A DNA stretch of 64,000 bases from Planctomycetales bacterium (lineage in GTDB: Bacteria; 4484-113): the NCBI GenBank assembly GCA_030606285.1, contig JAUWGS010000003.1, forward strand, positions 1 through 64,000, given 5' to 3'. The position numbers were made by a program, and so were the translations under genes. Within the stretch, counting starts at the first letter, position 1. Each line of letters opens with the position of its first letter. The notes under the pieces were generated by a model. It had not been told where the DNA came from. It searched no databases and saw only the letters and a list, made by a program, of their open reading frames with translations. Shown here one piece after another: positions 4,125 through 11,128 of the stretch.

Positions 4125-5066
4125 CTAAGCTGCTGGCTTCGGCTGAACCTCGTCAAACGACAGGCCGGCGATTATCAGGATGTACGTCGGTACCATTGGC
4201 AGGACACAGGGCGAGAGGAATGAGGCGAGGCCAGCCACGAACGCAATTCCCAGGTTCACCGCAGCCCCCTGCAACCAGGCTTCGGCGTTCAGCGTCGTTT
4301 CACCCATCAGCATCACAAGCTGCGCCACGCCCCAGAAGAATACCGCCAGGCCAAATAAAGCGCCGACGGTAAGCAACGGGACGAACATCTTCTTGCCCGC
4401 CGCCGGGTCTTTGGCGGCCCGTTTCGCAACGAGCAGCACCACAAGCAACACCAGTGTCACAATAGCGACATAGATCGCGATGCGGAGCAGCAGACCGGGG
4501 TCAACCGTGTACGAACGCGATAGGAAGCCGAAGAATAGCACGAAGCCGACGGCAATGAGCAGCAGTGCGCTGACGAAGTTGATTGCGCCCACATAACGCG
4601 CCATTCTCTGGATGAAGCCGAGCGCCGAGCCTATGAGCAGCGCCACCAGGAGAAACGGGATTGCCAGCCCCAGTGAATACGCAATCATCATTGGCACGCC
4701 CTGGCCGGGAGAACTGGCGGCGAGAGTGAGGATGACCGCCAGGATCGGCCCCAGGCAGGGCGTCCAACCGGCGGCGAAGGTTATCCCGATGAGAAGCGAC
4801 GATAAGTAGCCGCCTTTCGCCTGTATGTGGGCCTTCTTCTCCACGTAGAGAAACCTGAGCGGTGACAGGCCCCAGGTGCTGAGAAGGATGTGCAGGCCGA
4901 GTATGACGACTATGACGCCGCCGATCCAGCCAAAACAGCGCGGATAGTGCCTGATGAAGTTACCTACCCAGTTGGCGGGCAGACCAAAGACGACGATGAA
5001 GATAATTGAAAAGCCGAGCACAAAGGCAAGTGAATGGCTAAACGCTTTCAGAACGGTGCGGTTCAT
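4125..5066 (-). CDS. CcdA/DsbD-type thiol-electron transporter with permuted domain order
   Basis: Membrane protein of the CcdA/DsbD family, which carries reducing equivalents from cytoplasmic thioredoxin across the inner membrane. Both catalytic motifs are present but in reversed order. GWTPCLGP (Cys104) sits in the first half. The motif that normally opens the protein, SFLSPCVLPMVPTY (Cys287), lies 26 residues from the C-terminus. The protein starts with KAFSHSLAFVLGFSIIF, which in ordinary CcdA follows the first helix. About 80 extra, mostly hydrophobic residues (roughly 185-265) join old C-terminus to old N-terminus. ATG 5066 is secure: GAGGAGA lies just upstream and no longer frame is open. 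The gene is 48 bases downstream of the penicillin acylase gene, possibly as the last gene of that operon. Family confidence is high; the electron partner is unknown. Confidence 0.8.
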   Translation of the reverse strand: MNRTVLKAFSHSLAFVLGFSIIFIVVFGLPANWVGNFIRHYPRCFGWIGGVIVVILGLHILLSTWGLSPLRFLYVEKKAHIQAKGGYLSSLLIGITFAAGWTPCLGPILAVILTLAASSPGQGVPMMIAYSLGLAIPFLLVALLIGSALGFIQRMARYVGAINFVSALLLIAVGFVLFFGFLSRSYTVDPGLLLRIAIYVAIVTLVLLVVLLVAKRAAKDPAAGKKMFVPLLTVGALFGLAVFFWGVAQLVMLMGETTLNAEAWLQGAAVNLGIAFVAGLASFLSPCVLPMVPTYILIIAGLSFDEVQPKPAA

Positions 5067-5113
5067 CTTTCTCCTCGGATATTTCGCGTGTGATAAGTGT
5101 GCGCGGTATTATA

Positions 5114-7312
5114 TCAGTGCTGCTTGTACTTGTATTCGCCGGCCAGAAATAGAGCCACCTGGTCTGTCCAGTGAGGGCTTTCAGGGCGACCGCTGTTCCC
5201 GCCCGGAAAGACCGACCAGTATGCGCCTGTTGCCCCAGGGGTCATTATCAGACGGGCGGTGGGACCGAAACTCTTGAGCAAGTGAGCGCCATCCCACCGC
5301 ACCGAGGACACGTTCACCGTGCGATAGCCACCTGACGTCGGCAGCATCCCGGGCGATTGCGACGCGTAGAACGGCAACGGACTCACGAGCGGCAGGCGAT
5401 GTATTTCGCCGTATGGAGGGAACTCGGAACGTCCACCGGACAGCACCTTCTCCATCGCGCCGCGCCAAGCAGCAACAAGCTCCGAATCACTGAGCGCAAT
5501 CCAGTCTGCTCCCTGTAGCGCCGCCTGGAGGGCGATGTCATAGTGGCCTGATACGCAATGCGTGGTTCGCAGCGATGCCGTAAGCTCCCGCCGCATCAGT
5601 TCGTAAAGCGGCGCGCCCTGCGATTCAGCGTTCTCTTCGAAGTCCCATTCTGACAGCACGCCCAGCGCCTCGCGCCCGGATTCTGACATCTCGCCTTCCA
5701 GTAAGCGCATCCTCTCTAGAAGCGGCGGCAGAGCTTTTTTGGCAAAGCTGGAGTGAACATCCAGCTGTATTCGCGCTGCGTCTGCGAATGTGAGCTTGCC
5801 GCCCGTTGTGCCTGCAAGTATCAGCTCGCTGATGCGCCTTGCACGGTATCCGGGGGCATAGTTCCCGGGGAACACGGGCAGGCCGTCTGCGGTCAGCGCG
5901 GGCGGATTGTTGCAGGTGACCAGGAAGCCTGCGGTCGGATTGACGGCGTGCGGCATTTTCTCAAACGGGATGAAATCCCAGTGGTAGTCCGCAGCCTGCT
6001 CCGGCGTTGTGACGAGCCGGGCGTCATCTCCGTTGTAGTCCCGCTGGGGCACAAGCCCCGCAGAGAAGTAGGCGATGTTGCCGCTTGTGTCGGCGTAGAC
6101 AAAATTGCAGGGAGTTGCGAGTTTTGCGAGCGCTGCGCGGAAGTCGTCCAGCGACTCGCCGCTGTTGATGGCGAAATAGCCCAGCGCCTCGTCGTTGGGA
6201 TAGAAGCCCGTCCAGTGGAGTATGTAGTAGTTATCCTCGTCGGCTTCCACAACGGGCCCCAGCGGCGAGTCGAGGATCGTTGCCACCTCGTCGCGGACAG
6301 CCAGGCCGTCGCGGACGCGGATTGTCTCCTCGCGAGCTGTGAGTTCTTCGTCGAAGACTGCAACCACACAATCCCTGGGAACGATGAGGATATCTTCATT
6401 GTCAGCCTGCAGTGAGGTGAGCGCCCAGGAGTAATGCCTGGTCTTCCCCATAGCCACGAGGGCTGCGCCCGGCACCGTGATCCCGCGCACGCATATCTCT
6501 CCGGGCACTTCCAGCGCGACTTCGTACCAGATGCCGGGGAAGGTGACATCCAGGTGCGGGTCGCCTGCAACAATAGGAAGTCCGTTAAGTGTGAGCTCCC
6601 CCGAAACTACAAACGCGTTGCTGCCCAGCACGCGCTCGCCGTCACCGCAGCCGGATGCCAGTGCAAGCTTGTTCCACGGCTCAGCGAGCGTGGAGTACCA
6701 TTCCCGCTCTGCCGCAAGACCATCGAGCTTCTCCTGCATTCGCGCCCATTCCCCGCCGCGCCTTCGGGCGCGCAACCTGCCAAGCTCATCGTAGTGGTCG
6801 CCGGAGAGGTACACGTGCATCAGCGCCGCGACGGCCAGCGTATCCGCGGGAAGCCACGGCTCGAACTTCGGCAACACGAAGTACTCAGGCGGCAGGCCCT
6901 TTTCGGCTATGCAGTCATTGATTCCCTGAGCATAGGCGAGCAACGCCTGGTGAGCATCAGGACCGGTTTTGGCCAGCCGGGCCAGATCGCGCTCGGCAAG
7001 CTTGCGCAGGTTCAACCGACGCATCTCGACGTCGCCGCGCAGGTAATCTTCGCCGCCTATTTCCGCAAGCTGACCGTAGGCTTTGCGCCGTGAGATGTCG
7101 AGCTGCACCAGCCGGTCTTCGGCGGTGGCGCAGCCAAGTGCGTAGAAAAGCTCCGGGACAGTGTCAGCGGTGATGTGAGGAACGCCCCACGCGTCGCGTA
7201 CGATACCATCGGGGGCGGCGCGCGCTGGCAGCGTGAAGAGCAGCGGGGAGAGTACCAGCACAACCAGCAGCGCCGTGAGACATGCAGCAACCAGGGGCCG
7301 GTTTTGAACCAT
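5114..7312 (-). CDS. Penicillin acylase-family N-terminal nucleophile hydrolase
   Basis: Exported amidohydrolase of the penicillin G acylase/acyl-homoserine lactone acylase/aculeacin acylase family, made as a precursor that cleaves itself into alpha and beta chains. Signal peptide at residues 1-32. The alpha chain begins IVRDAWGVPHITADT. The nucleophile is Ser231 in LGSNAFVVSG, preceded by a spacer (SGCGDGERV). The beta chain continues with AGDPHLD and ends SGRPESPHWTDQ and LFLAGEY, as in the family. Length 732 is normal. The start lies 2 bases after the stop of the upstream membrane-protein gene, so translation is coupled. Actual substrate (N-acyl amide, lipopeptide or signal molecule) cannot be read from sequence. 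Confidence 0.9.
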   Translation of the reverse strand: MVQNRPLVAACLTALLVVLVLSPLLFTLPARAAPDGIVRDAWGVPHITADTVPELFYALGCATAEDRLVQLDISRRKAYGQLAEIGGEDYLRGDVEMRRLNLRKLAERDLARLAKTGPDAHQALLAYAQGINDCIAEKGLPPEYFVLPKFEPWLPADTLAVAALMHVYLSGDHYDELGRLRARRRGGEWARMQEKLDGLAAEREWYSTLAEPWNKLALASGCGDGERVLGSNAFVVSGELTLNGLPIVAGDPHLDVTFPGIWYEVALEVPGEICVRGITVPGAALVAMGKTRHYSWALTSLQADNEDILIVPRDCVVAVFDEELTAREETIRVRDGLAVRDEVATILDSPLGPVVEADEDNYYILHWTGFYPNDEALGYFAINSGESLDDFRAALAKLATPCNFVYADTSGNIAYFSAGLVPQRDYNGDDARLVTTPEQAADYHWDFIPFEKMPHAVNPTAGFLVTCNNPPALTADGLPVFPGNYAPGYRARRISELILAGTTGGKLTFADAARIQLDVHSSFAKKALPPLLERMRLLEGEMSESGREALGVLSEWDFEENAESQGAPLYELMRRELTASLRTTHCVSGHYDIALQAALQGADWIALSDSELVAAWRGAMEKVLSGGRSEFPPYGEIHRLPLVSPLPFYASQSPGMLPTSGGYRTVNVSSVRWDGAHLLKSFGPTARLIMTPGATGAYWSVFPGGNSGRPESPHWTDQVALFLAGEYKYKQH

Positions 7313-7314
7313 TC

Positions 7315-8100
7315 CTAGCCGCCGTGGAACAACGATGCTATTCGAGCCACTATTTCTTCGCCAATCCAGTCGAACATCAAGAACTGCATCCGGCCGATGA
7401 GCAGCGAGACGCGCGCCATAATCGTGTAGCCGAAGGATGCACCGAAGGCTATCATCAGCATGTAGATGCCAACGCGCGAAACCCTACCGATGAAGCCGCG
7501 ATGCTCCATTGAGAAGAAGAAGTACACGAGCACGGATAGCGCGCCGATGAACAAGATGAGCGAGTTCAGCAGCAAGACGGCAGAGTCAATCGAATTTACC
7601 CGCCATGGGATAGCCTCCATCGTGGCGAAGAACTGCGGAAGCAAAAAGCCAGCAAAGATTCTTGGCAGTGCAACTCCCGTAAAACCGCCGATGTAGAAGG
7701 CGAAAGTGATGCGCGAAAACCAGCCCTGCCCCGGTATGAGCCGCATCAGGATGAACACGCCGAGTATCCCTGGAACAATGATCCACAGGTTCAAAGATGT
7801 ACCTTCGGGCGTTCCGTAATGCGGATCAAGCACCGGTATCAGGGGGTAGACAAACTTGGGCTTCAGGAAGTTGAACCAGTAGATGGTCATCACATAAGCA
7901 GCGGAGATGCCGAGATACAGATGTTCGCCGAAGCGGAAGAAGGGATTGTCTTTGTAAACGAACGACAACATGCACAGCGTAAGGCCCGCAGCAATCCAGG
8001 TGCCCAGAACAGGCATCCCGCCCTCGGTAAGAAAGGTACTCATTACCTCTTGCCACGGGGCCAGGTCGTTCTGCAACAAGATGATCGCGAGGTGCGTCAT
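7315..8100 (-). CDS. Polytopic membrane protein of the acylase operon, unknown function
   Basis: 261 residues with about seven hydrophobic helices (near residues 30-50, 62-80, 106-124, 130-150, 170-195, 200-215). I do not recognise the family. The segment GASFGYTIMARVSLLIGRM near the C-terminus is Gly/Arg-containing and amphipathic. Starts ATG 8100, two bases after the stop of the 8103-8966 gene, and ends two bases before the acylase start, so it is embedded in a translationally coupled operon. A structural subunit of an inner-membrane assembly fits the context, but that is inference from gene order only. Confidence 0.6.
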   Translation of the reverse strand: MTHLAIILLQNDLAPWQEVMSTFLTEGGMPVLGTWIAAGLTLCMLSFVYKDNPFFRFGEHLYLGISAAYVMTIYWFNFLKPKFVYPLIPVLDPHYGTPEGTSLNLWIIVPGILGVFILMRLIPGQGWFSRITFAFYIGGFTGVALPRIFAGFLLPQFFATMEAIPWRVNSIDSAVLLLNSLILFIGALSVLVYFFFSMEHRGFIGRVSRVGIYMLMIAFGASFGYTIMARVSLLIGRMQFLMFDWIGEEIVARIASLFHGG

Positions 8101-8102
8101 GA

Positions 8103-8966
8103 CTACGCCTCCTCCCGCGCCTGACGACGCTTCTGGCCTGCAAGCACGAAGGCAAAGATGTTGGCGATTATGATTACGACAAAGATGAGCGCGTGGACGA
8201 TGGACTGGGAATCCATCGCCGAGACCGCCATAGCAGGCTTATCGATTAGCAGTTCGTATTCCGCCGCGCCCTTGAGACCGCCGAGAATGCCATTTATCTG
8301 CTTGGCCTGCAAGAATGGGTAGTACTGGGGCGCGACTACCGCGGTCACGCCGGCTGCCACTTCCACATCGTAAGGCTCGGTGGCAAAGATAATCCAGGAA
8401 TCCCCCGTGCTGCCCGCCTCTAACATGACCATATAATCGGTCTGTGCAAACTTGTCGTATTCCTTTATCAGGGGCATCGTCTTTGTAGTGCTGCCGTAGA
8501 AGTCGTGAGGGAAGGTCCTTGAGAAGCTGCTGCCCATGGAGATGATTACAATTGCCGTGCCTACCTGATAGCCCAGGAATACGTAGTCCTCTCCGCTAGT
8601 CCAATCCGGGTAATCGACCTTGAGTTCCTCAATGGCTTGAGCTACAAGGTTTGGGCCGTTAGGCCAAAGAACCGGAATCACCAGTTTGTGCTTCTTCTCG
8701 ATTACGTGCCGCATCACGGCCTTCATCATCGGATAGAGCTCGGGCATAGAGGCAGGATCGTAGTCCACCGCCAGCAGCATATGCGATCCCTCAGGCAAGC
8801 TCTCAATGGTGTCGTAGACGCTTTGAACTTCCGAAGTGACCTTGATGGGTAACCCCATCGGGAACAGCAGAGGGATGGCAACTGCTAGAACGACCAGCGT
8901 ATAGATGATGCGGCGGTCCAGTTGGAGAAAGCGCTCGATGAAACTGGGTTTCTGCACCTTTTCCAT
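8103..8966 (-). CDS. Bitopic envelope protein of the acylase operon, unknown function
   Basis: 287 residues: a cytoplasmic N-terminus, a transmembrane helix at about 20-38, a ~215-residue globular domain and a C-terminal helix at about 255-275 followed by a basic tail (QKRRQAREEA). The globular part contains ESLPEGSHMLLAVDYDPASM, then HKLVIPVLWPNGP and YVFLGYQVGTAIVIISMGSS, i.e. an alternating alpha/beta domain. I know of no function. Start ATG shares one base with the TGA of the preceding gene (TGATG at 8964-8968). The topology suggests that the domain faces one side of the membrane and may bind a partner from the same operon. Confidence 0.6.
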   Translation of the reverse strand: MEKVQKPSFIERFLQLDRRIIYTLVVLAVAIPLLFPMGLPIKVTSEVQSVYDTIESLPEGSHMLLAVDYDPASMPELYPMMKAVMRHVIEKKHKLVIPVLWPNGPNLVAQAIEELKVDYPDWTSGEDYVFLGYQVGTAIVIISMGSSFSRTFPHDFYGSTTKTMPLIKEYDKFAQTDYMVMLEAGSTGDSWIIFATEPYDVEVAAGVTAVVAPQYYPFLQAKQINGILGGLKGAAEYELLIDKPAMAVSAMDSQSIVHALIFVVIIIANIFAFVLAGQKRRQAREEA

Positions 8967-9598
8967 CAGTCGCCACCTCCCATATAGGTGCGTTCAATGC
9001 CGAAAATTATGCGCACCGCAATCGCAATCTGCGCCAGAGCTACCCCCAGCAAGATACCTCGATAACCTGCCATATTAGGGTTGTTCAGGATCCAGTCGGA
9101 AAACGTACTCAAGTGGGGGCTGATGAACTCGCCAATGGGCACCCGGCCAATCATTACAATAAGCCCGGCAAGGAGCAATGCGAGAGCCTCCCAGGTTCGC
9201 GCCCGGAACGCCCGGAAGGCGGCGGAAGCGATGAAGAACGCCAGGGTGGCGAACATCGTGGCTTGCATTGGTACGAACAGCCACTGGTACTCCCAGCCTG
9301 CCGGTGTCCCCGGTCGGTAGTGGAAAACGAAACCGAGCACAAGCATCTGGATGAAGGCGACAATCGTAATTACCGAAAAGCCGTAACCAAGCACTCGCTT
9401 GCGAATCTTGCCCATGTGGTAGTGCAAGAGAGATGCAATGGCAAAAATCGCTGCAAAACCTGCGATGACTATCAACCAGTCAGCGAAGCCTTCGTAAAAC
9501 CCCTTCGAGAGCTTTGACGGCACGAAGTACTGGACGAACAGCAGCATACCCATAACAAAGGCCAGTAAAACAGGAAACTGCTTTCGGAAGAATTGCAT
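8966..9598 (-). CDS. Membrane protein of the acylase operon, unknown function
   Basis: 210 residues, about six hydrophobic helices (residues 8-25, 40-58, 75-95, 110-128, 138-152, 183-202). Opens with MQFFRKQFPVLLAFVMG and ends in a short polar tail (ERTYMGGGD). No family recognised. Starts three bases downstream of the FN3/DUF6754-like gene and overlaps the next gene by one base, so it should be made in step with both. Confidence 0.6.
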   Translation of the reverse strand: MQFFRKQFPVLLAFVMGMLLFVQYFVPSKLSKGFYEGFADWLIVIAGFAAIFAIASLLHYHMGKIRKRVLGYGFSVITIVAFIQMLVLGFVFHYRPGTPAGWEYQWLFVPMQATMFATLAFFIASAAFRAFRARTWEALALLLAGLIVMIGRVPIGEFISPHLSTFSDWILNNPNMAGYRGILLGVALAQIAIAVRIIFGIERTYMGGGD

Positions 9599-9601
9599 GA
9601 A

Positions 9602-10972
9602 TTACCCCAGTGCCAGGAAGAAATCCTTGATGAACGCAATACCGAAGGTTACCAGAAGCGTTCCCACGATTATCATAACCATCATGAAAACTTTCGCCAT
9701 GTCCTGGCCCTTAAGACTGCCCAGAATCAATGGCTCCCGCGAGAGATATGCGCTGGCAGCATAGAGCTCCTCGCCAATCAACGTGTAGTCGCAAGTGGTG
9801 ACGAAGAACGGCAGTTGGTGCACGGCGTCCGTGCCTGCAATCTGGATAGCACCTGTGTCAGCCCCCGTCTCCGCAAGGATAAGGCTCTCTGCGGCGTAGT
9901 AACCCATAAGGAAGTTCGCCGCCGGCTTGTCGCGCATCATAATGCCGCAAACGCCTGCGGCGTATGAGAACTGGTCTTCAGTCAGGAAGAAAATGCTATC
10001 GGGATTGTAGGCATCGGGACGCCCCGCATCAGTGTAGCCAGCTTTGACGATTTCCTGTGCCACCGTAAGCACGATCGGATCCTTACACGGCACGATGAGC
10101 GACGACTCATAGTTGGCTACGCGGCGGGCAACCCGTCCGAGGATGTTGAGGGCGGCGAGGGTCGGTAGAGCTGCAAGGGTGTCGATCCCGTTCAGGTACA
10201 AGATTGGCCTGCCCATCTCGGTTGCGCGCCCGATAGCTTCATCAACTGCATCCAGGCCGCTTATCTTACGGATGAACAGGTTCGGATCTCGTCTGGCGCG
10301 AGCGATGAAATACAGAATAGTGGCTCCGAACAGCACCGCAAAGATGAGCACGTTGGTGCGCCCGGTGTCGAACCACTGCTCTTCAGGAGTTGCGCTGAGA
10401 ATTTCCGCGTAATTCCGGCTGACATCACCGACGCTCGCGGTGAGCCTGACGAAGTACTCCACGCCCGTCTCTAAAGGCACGTTGTCACCCAGTTCCTGGA
10501 TGACGAACATGTGGAAGTTCTTGCTCATGCCCGCCCGGCCTTTCTGGAACAAGAAGAAGGCTGGGTAGTAGTGCCTTGCTTCCTCCTTCCATTTCTTGGT
10601 GGCCGGGAAGCCGCCAATCTCCTGCCACGGACCATCCGGACCCGCCCCGACACTCACGGTGTAAGTAAGAGCCTCGGTCTCACCGGGGGCTTTCTCGAAC
10701 TCCACGACAAGGCCTGTACCGTCGTCGTTGGGAAGGTCGCTGACCGTGACGTGCGTTGGCAGGGGCACCTCAACCGCAGGCGCCGCTTCTTCCATAACGG
10801 GCTCCAAGCCGATGACCATGTCGGCGCCCTCGAGCGCTTCCAGCTCATCGCCTTCAGCGGCAAACGGTTCGTCAGGCAGTTCAACATCTGCTTCCTGACT
10901 GAAGGCCGCTGAGCAGAGCAGAAGAGTTAAAACGACAACTACTGATGTTGCCAGTCTGATGAAATTCTTCAT
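9602..10972 (-). CDS. Exported FN3-like protein with C-terminal DUF6754-type membrane domain
   Basis: First gene of the acylase operon. ATG 10972 (AAAGGTC upstream) gives a clean signal peptide (NFIRLATSVVVVLTLLLCSA); an upstream GTG would bury it. Residues ~25-75 are acidic and low-complexity. Residues ~80-210 look like one fibronectin III-type beta domain (TLTVSDLP-like opening, GVEYFVRLTASVGDVS near the end). A helix follows (VLIFAVLFGATILYFIARAR). The remainder contains ISGLDAVDEAIGRATEMGRP, GAIQIAGTD, QLPFFVTTCDYTLIGEELYA and a last helix. I recall that conserved pattern as DUF6754, which has no known function. An extended -10 lies at 11000-11008. Confidence 0.65.
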   Translation of the reverse strand: MKNFIRLATSVVVVLTLLLCSAAFSQEADVELPDEPFAAEGDELEALEGADMVIGLEPVMEEAAPAVEVPLPTHVTVSDLPNDDGTGLVVEFEKAPGETEALTYTVSVGAGPDGPWQEIGGFPATKKWKEEARHYYPAFFLFQKGRAGMSKNFHMFVIQELGDNVPLETGVEYFVRLTASVGDVSRNYAEILSATPEEQWFDTGRTNVLIFAVLFGATILYFIARARRDPNLFIRKISGLDAVDEAIGRATEMGRPILYLNGIDTLAALPTLAALNILGRVARRVANYESSLIVPCKDPIVLTVAQEIVKAGYTDAGRPDAYNPDSIFFLTEDQFSYAAGVCGIMMRDKPAANFLMGYYAAESLILAETGADTGAIQIAGTDAVHQLPFFVTTCDYTLIGEELYAASAYLSREPLILGSLKGQDMAKVFMMVMIIVGTLLVTFGIAFIKDFFLALG

Positions 10973-10999
10973 AGGCTTTTGACCTTTTGAAGGTAGCAC

Positions 11000-11008
11000 A
11001 TTATAGCA
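11000..11008 (-). promoter_or_regulatory. Extended -10 promoter of the five-gene acylase operon
   Basis: TGCTATAAT on the minus strand, a perfect extended -10, 28 bases before the ATG at 10972. No -35 match is visible at the expected distance. This is the only good promoter candidate for the operon running to 5114. Confidence 0.6.
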
Positions 11009-11128
11009 CTCAGGCAATTGGTGTGCGAAGGCACCGAAGAGCCTTTTGCGCGTGGCGATTGCGCAATTGGCGGAATCTCTCTATGCTATGTAGCAGACAC
11101 CCCAGCCGGGGGAAACAGGAGCTATTCA

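Follow-up and report, generated by a model that had tools for sequence, protein, structure and literature searches.

The stretch of DNA analysed here, 64,000 nucleotides long and called the window below, carries on its minus strand a CcdA-like gene for a protein of 313 amino acids (4125..5066; ATG start, stop included). The ATG is abutted by a Shine-Dalgarno-like sequence, GAGGAGAAAG, read from the DNA itself (5067..5076, minus strand). The orthologue in a second genome of the genus (G001) has GGGGAGAAAG at the equivalent position. The reading frame is closed 14 codons 5' of the ATG and measures 327 amino acids from stop to stop. A first-pass annotation had argued from a strong ribosome-binding site and a closed upstream frame that the start was not mis-called, and had pointed to one way of being wrong, a canonical N-terminal SPC helix lost upstream. 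Such a helix was looked for. In the 600 bases upstream none of the three frames holds a segment resembling transmembrane helix (TM) 1, and the start stands as annotated. The gene lies beside lpxA in both genomes. Directly upstream in the window is a penicillin amidase family gene (5114-7312, minus strand) which is missing at this place in G001. Four more minus-strand genes are located at 7315-11017, three without a Pfam or NCBIfam match and one DUF6754 gene; the two nearest to the ccdA-like gene have the same order in G001 and there directly precede it.

The protein matched the CcdA/DsbD transmembrane domain in two pieces of exchanged order. Pfam DsbD_TM (PF02683; 1.1e-07) scored 31.8 bits over the whole protein and passed the gathering cut-off of 27.1; with the G001 protein it scored 35.8 bits and with the short permutants described below 47-61 bits. 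Profile positions 40-214 fell on residues 4-177 and profile positions 3-35 on window 4161-4259, the C-terminal end of the same protein. A phmmer search of all PDB sequences returned a sole match, CcdA of Thermus thermophilus (5VKV; E 2.8e-28), again in two stretches with swapped order: residues 11-183 correspond to chain 42-204 (i-E 1.2e-21) and residues 270-301 to chain 3-34 (i-E 2.4e-5). Because each stretch is significant by itself the swapped order is not due to chance. The separate matching of both pieces to CcdA, which the first-pass annotation had put forward as a check, spoke in its favor, as did the alignment of the N-terminus with canonical helix 2. Residues 1-185 (4512..5066, minus strand) are equivalent to canonical TM2-TM6, and residues 265-313 (4128..4274, minus strand) to canonical TM1 with SFLSPCVLPMVPTY, now C-terminal. 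Family members usually have six TMs in the order TM1 to TM6; here the order is TM2-TM6, two extra TMs (a and b) and TM1. The redox cysteines typical of the family, SPCxLP in TM1 and (W)TPC in TM4, are both present. Cys104 of WTPC, the canonical TM4 redox cysteine (codon 4755..4757, minus strand), is invariant in 46/46 filled alignment rows, and Cys287 of SPC, the canonical TM1 redox cysteine (codon 4206..4208, minus strand), in 35/35. As annotated, both motifs are intact and the one that normally stands at the protein start is at its C-terminus. Conservation does not extend to the third cysteine, Cys44.

In G001, the only other genome of the genus that the analysis covered (L002; the contig also occurs as L034, JAOZQG010000026.1, from a metagenome-assembled bacterium), the TM order is the same, with 70% identity over residues 1-312 and no stops. 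The TM2-6 pieces are 82% identical (dN 0.14, dS 1.23), the TM1 pieces 76% (dN 0.17, dS 1.26) and the segments that bridge them 39% (dN 0.57, dS 2.22); dS is near saturation and the dN/dS ratios are therefore rough. Judged by these rates, the TM2-6 and TM1 pieces are both under strong purifying selection, the bridge far less. The recurrence of the order in G001, the selection on both pieces and the failure to find another CcdA in the genome argue that the permuted order is not an error of sequence or start. An assembly error, a frameshift or a wrong start could hide a normal CcdA with an upstream TM1, and the source is a draft genome of 36 contigs. We give this hardly any credence. Separate assemblies of two species agree on the order despite their divergence, the frame is closed and no TM1 is present in the upstream frames, the gene is interior to contigs of 190 kb and 21 kb, and the same cut is found in Nitrospira on very large contigs (G298:C1, G352:C1).

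Circular permutations usually arise through tandem duplication. The C-terminal SPC segment might be the start of a decayed second ccdA copy, and the protein damaged or partly functional; an archaeal genome in which a permuted and a canonical copy are about 5 kb apart (G578) agrees with such a course. However, TM1 is constrained like the core, its cysteine is invariant, and neither a TM2-6 remnant downstream, which was looked for, nor a TM1 remnant upstream was found. A duplication remnant is thus very improbable. The reading as a natural circular permutant, proposed in the first-pass annotation, agrees with all of these data: the homologous pieces are swapped, the order is conserved across species, the old ends are joined, the moved piece is single-copy, selection is purifying on both pieces, and neither a TM1 upstream nor another CcdA was found. 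We hold with high confidence that the permutation is genuine; homology places the protein in the CcdA family, in which its architecture is a new variant.

The bridge comprises residues 186-264 (4275..4511, minus strand). The roughly 80 extra residues that had been annotated as joining the old ends are present, and they appear to be more than a plain linker: two strongly hydrophobic segments indicate two additional TM helices (about 190-218 and 221-256 by hydropathy and AF2 helices, the second partly of low confidence). Such bridge helices were seen only in the window genus and are absent from all other permutants. By established topology the canonical CcdA chain ends are periplasmic. As the count of bridge helices is even, TM1 would stay in its canonical orientation. 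When a cytoplasmic N-terminus was assumed, the loops expected inside contained 4 (TM3-4), 2 (TM5-6) and 5 (hairpin between a and b) lysines plus arginines, and those expected outside 0-2. The TM2-3 loop, periplasmic in the model, has 2 and gives the topology no support of its own. Overall, the positive-inside charges would fit cytoplasmic chain ends. Alternatively, the bridge helices may be TM7-TM8 of the DsbD type, which would make the ancestor an 8-TM DsbD-like domain and not a 6-TM CcdA that received an insertion. Their number and place fit, and the window bridge reached z 3.4 against residues 381-460 of E. coli DsbD. Yet the G001 bridge had z 0.2 in the same test, the core is nearer to CcdA than to DsbD, and other permutants have no such helices. 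We consider a DsbD-type ancestor rather unlikely. Matches of the bridge to ceramidase and to pilin-like proteins were weak, below the cut-off, and were dismissed.

For the window protein AF2 gave a model with a pLDDT of 78.5 and a pTM of 0.70. Foldseek (PDB and viral models) and VIA searches with this model listed only unrelated helical proteins and no CcdA or 5VKV, probably because both methods compare structures in chain order and the model is weak in the bridge helices. The model of a short woesearchaeal permutant (pLDDT 84.2) retrieved 5VKV at rank 1 in Foldseek against the PDB (probability 1.00). VIA gave a Z of 6.6 over 173 residues at 4.4 Angstrom, the next entry having 3.7, and paired model residues 4-201 with 5VKV chain 36-224. 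This offset is expected for a cut in the TM1-TM2 loop with TM1 left over. Among helical proteins a Z of 6.6 counts as modest, and hence the prediction lends support to a CcdA fold but does not prove it.

In System II cytochrome c maturation the partners of CcdA are CcsA, ResB and ResA (PMC4222556). The window genome contains adjacent genes for CcsA and then ResB (G000:C26, L191), a ResA-like protein that begins like a lipoprotein and has a WGISCPPC motif (C12, L186), and a TlpA-like protein with WAKWCSPC (L188). Taken together, CcsA, ResB/CcsB, ResA/CcsX and a CcdA-type protein are encoded in one genome, the maturation genes not being adjacent to the permuted ccdA. With these genes present, the permuted protein probably serves as the functional CcdA in a System II pathway. 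The 2.3-Mb genome was searched for a second CcdA/DsbD domain with the protein itself, with Pfam DsbD_TM and with a CcdA-thioredoxin fusion from the same class; none was found in this draft, which is 91% complete, so that a second CcdA could sit in the missing part. Two proteins from the class of the window genome (L032, L033) have a canonical-order CcdA-like domain and a C-terminal thioredoxin-like domain; they are distant from the permuted protein. A thioredoxin-like gene adjoining the permuted ccdA was not found in the window genus.

The permuted protein could also have a job other than cytochrome c maturation, for instance in the efflux of metals or arsenicals or in a thiol pathway at the surface. 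Its gene has lpxA and an operon for unknown proteins as neighbours instead of ccs genes, a distant likeness to ArsG-type permeases was noted far below the cut-off, and secreted-looking proteins with thioredoxin domains could be clients. On the other hand, both redox cysteine motifs are intact and this is the sole CcdA-type domain found in this genome, which has System II genes. Another job is therefore unlikely. We have good confidence in a CcdA-like function; the likeliest role would be the usual one of CcdA, carried out by a re-threaded chain. The secreted-looking proteins (L189, G000:C14; L190, G000:C13) are large and have dockerin-like repeats (DYDNxGxVGIxDITPxAMHY), Fn3-like stretches and a C-terminal thioredoxin domain with CxxC, all domains except Redoxin being assigned by eye. 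They may be clients of the permuted CcdA, or its partners, at the cell surface.

We propose the following scheme. The chain would begin at the old cytoplasmic TM1-TM2 loop, pass through TM2-TM6, cross the membrane twice more in the bridge and end with TM1. Through the bridge the old chain ends would be connected on the periplasmic face, and both new termini would be cytoplasmic. As in canonical CcdA, TM1 (Cys287) would be packed against TM4 (Cys104). This cysteine pair may transfer electrons from a cytoplasmic thioredoxin to periplasmic ResA/TlpA-type proteins for System II cytochrome c maturation. The permutation may have arisen by tandem duplication followed by loss of both ends. It is very probable, in our view, that the window protein is the CcdA/DsbD transmembrane domain in a naturally occurring, circularly permuted form and works in this manner.

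Other proteins of the same order were searched for, as had been suggested. From 84,980 species genomes scanned with a pair alignment, 80 loci were retained. The patterns used, FVLGFSII and GLPANW[VI]G, favor close kin and the real spread may be larger. Besides the G001 contig ten of the 80 loci were permuted, with TM1 after TM6 and none before TM2, short links and no extra TMs. Five are woesearchaeal, one is aenigmatarchaeal, three are from Nitrospira and one is from Ryanbacteria, i.e. they represent DPANN archaea, Nitrospira and a single CPR contig. The remaining loci mostly had canonical order. Viral contigs yielded no relatives of the window protein. Among the genomes sampled, permutants were found in 27 of 279 from the phylum of a woesearchaeal genome and in 5 of 198 Nitrospirota; the Nitrospira genomes that were checked have a canonical CcdA copy in addition. 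In the Ryanbacteria phylum only the starting genome was permuted (287 sampled). As this single protein (L108, contig MHOB01000003.1) nests within the archaeal clade, transfer or mis-binning is likely.

At five of the archaeal/CPR loci checked, a thioredoxin-family gene (WCPIC or WCPTC, Pfam-confirmed) is located directly upstream of the permuted gene. These adjoining genes speak for a redox role of permuted CcdAs generally. At the sixth, archaeal locus a DUF3179 protein with YCPLC is found in place of the thioredoxin (L058:3945-4970). Upstream of another archaeal permutant is a DUF6799-thioredoxin fusion (L044:1486-2253). The permuted and canonical copies of the archaeal genome mentioned above are on one strand (G578:C4 180538-186581), and L084 has a similar pair. 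Possibly the G578 pair is a trace of, or a candidate for, the duplication route.

The number of origins was examined in a tree of 35 permuted and 69 canonical proteins, all rotated to one order. The permuted rows require at least four changes on this tree, with bootstraps at 4-5, and the starred branches alone force two. A single origin, with all permutants in one clade, was rejected (AU p = 0.0004), which means at least two origins under the tree model. In a 46-row subset, a common origin was rejected for archaeal and window proteins (p 0.003), for archaeal and Nitrospira proteins (p 1e-5) and for all three together. A joint origin of window and Nitrospira proteins was not rejected (p 0.16). 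The branch leading to the window pair is long (0.86), which makes the placement of this pair less certain. No support was obtained for counting L079 and L093 as additional origins. From these trees we would put the number of origins at two or more; three are likely, a figure in which our confidence is moderate. We lean slightly towards the more far-reaching proposal that the CcdA fold was cut on three or more independent occasions at the same cytoplasmic TM1-TM2 loop, in DPANN, in Nitrospira and in the candidate phylum of the window, with working products each time. CcdA has six TMs in two inverted repeats, and TM1 and TM4 were proposed to move as an elevator in a scaffold (PMC7329351). If there were three or more origins, one of the two mobile cysteine helices of the proposed elevator could have its tether on the other face of the membrane.

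Among soluble proteins, natural circular permutants are common, whereas for polytopic helical membrane proteins there are almost no reports of them. The authors who described circular permutation for VKOR/DsbB found no earlier reports for this type of protein and call theirs the first for helical membrane proteins (PMC4555120), and according to a paper of 2020 none had been observed in such membrane proteins (PMC7162841). VKOR and DsbB, too, are membrane thiol-redox proteins related by circular permutation. They are, however, two remote families recognised by structure, whereas the CcdA permutation occurred within one family and more than once. Repeat shuffling between Mem_trans and SBF_like in CPA/AT transporters (PMC8396727) likewise reorders segments and is a looser parallel; there whole inverted repeats were exchanged, whereas in CcdA a single helix was moved and the cut is inside one repeat. 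In the open-access literature we found no description of a permuted CcdA or DsbD, in line with the first-pass annotation, which had known of none, and the VKOR/DsbB case as the one report of a natural permutation between polytopic helical membrane proteins. On every point open to testing that annotation proved correct.

With Thermus thermophilus CcdA the window protein shares, by sequence, TM2-TM6, TM1 and both redox cysteine motifs; it differs by the C-terminal TM1, the two bridge TMs and the predicted cytoplasmic chain ends. The transmembrane domain of E. coli DsbD is of the same fold family and also has 8 TMs, but the window protein has neither the periplasmic alpha nor gamma domain, and its TM1 is moved. 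Permuted and canonical members are 35-45% identical. As they can be aligned by sequence, one can date the event, test whether it was repeated and compare the cut between lineages. Natural CcdAs in which the only anchor of TM1 is periplasmic test whether insertion, folding or movement depends on the TM1-TM2 connection. Annotation by domain match alone conceals the rearrangement.
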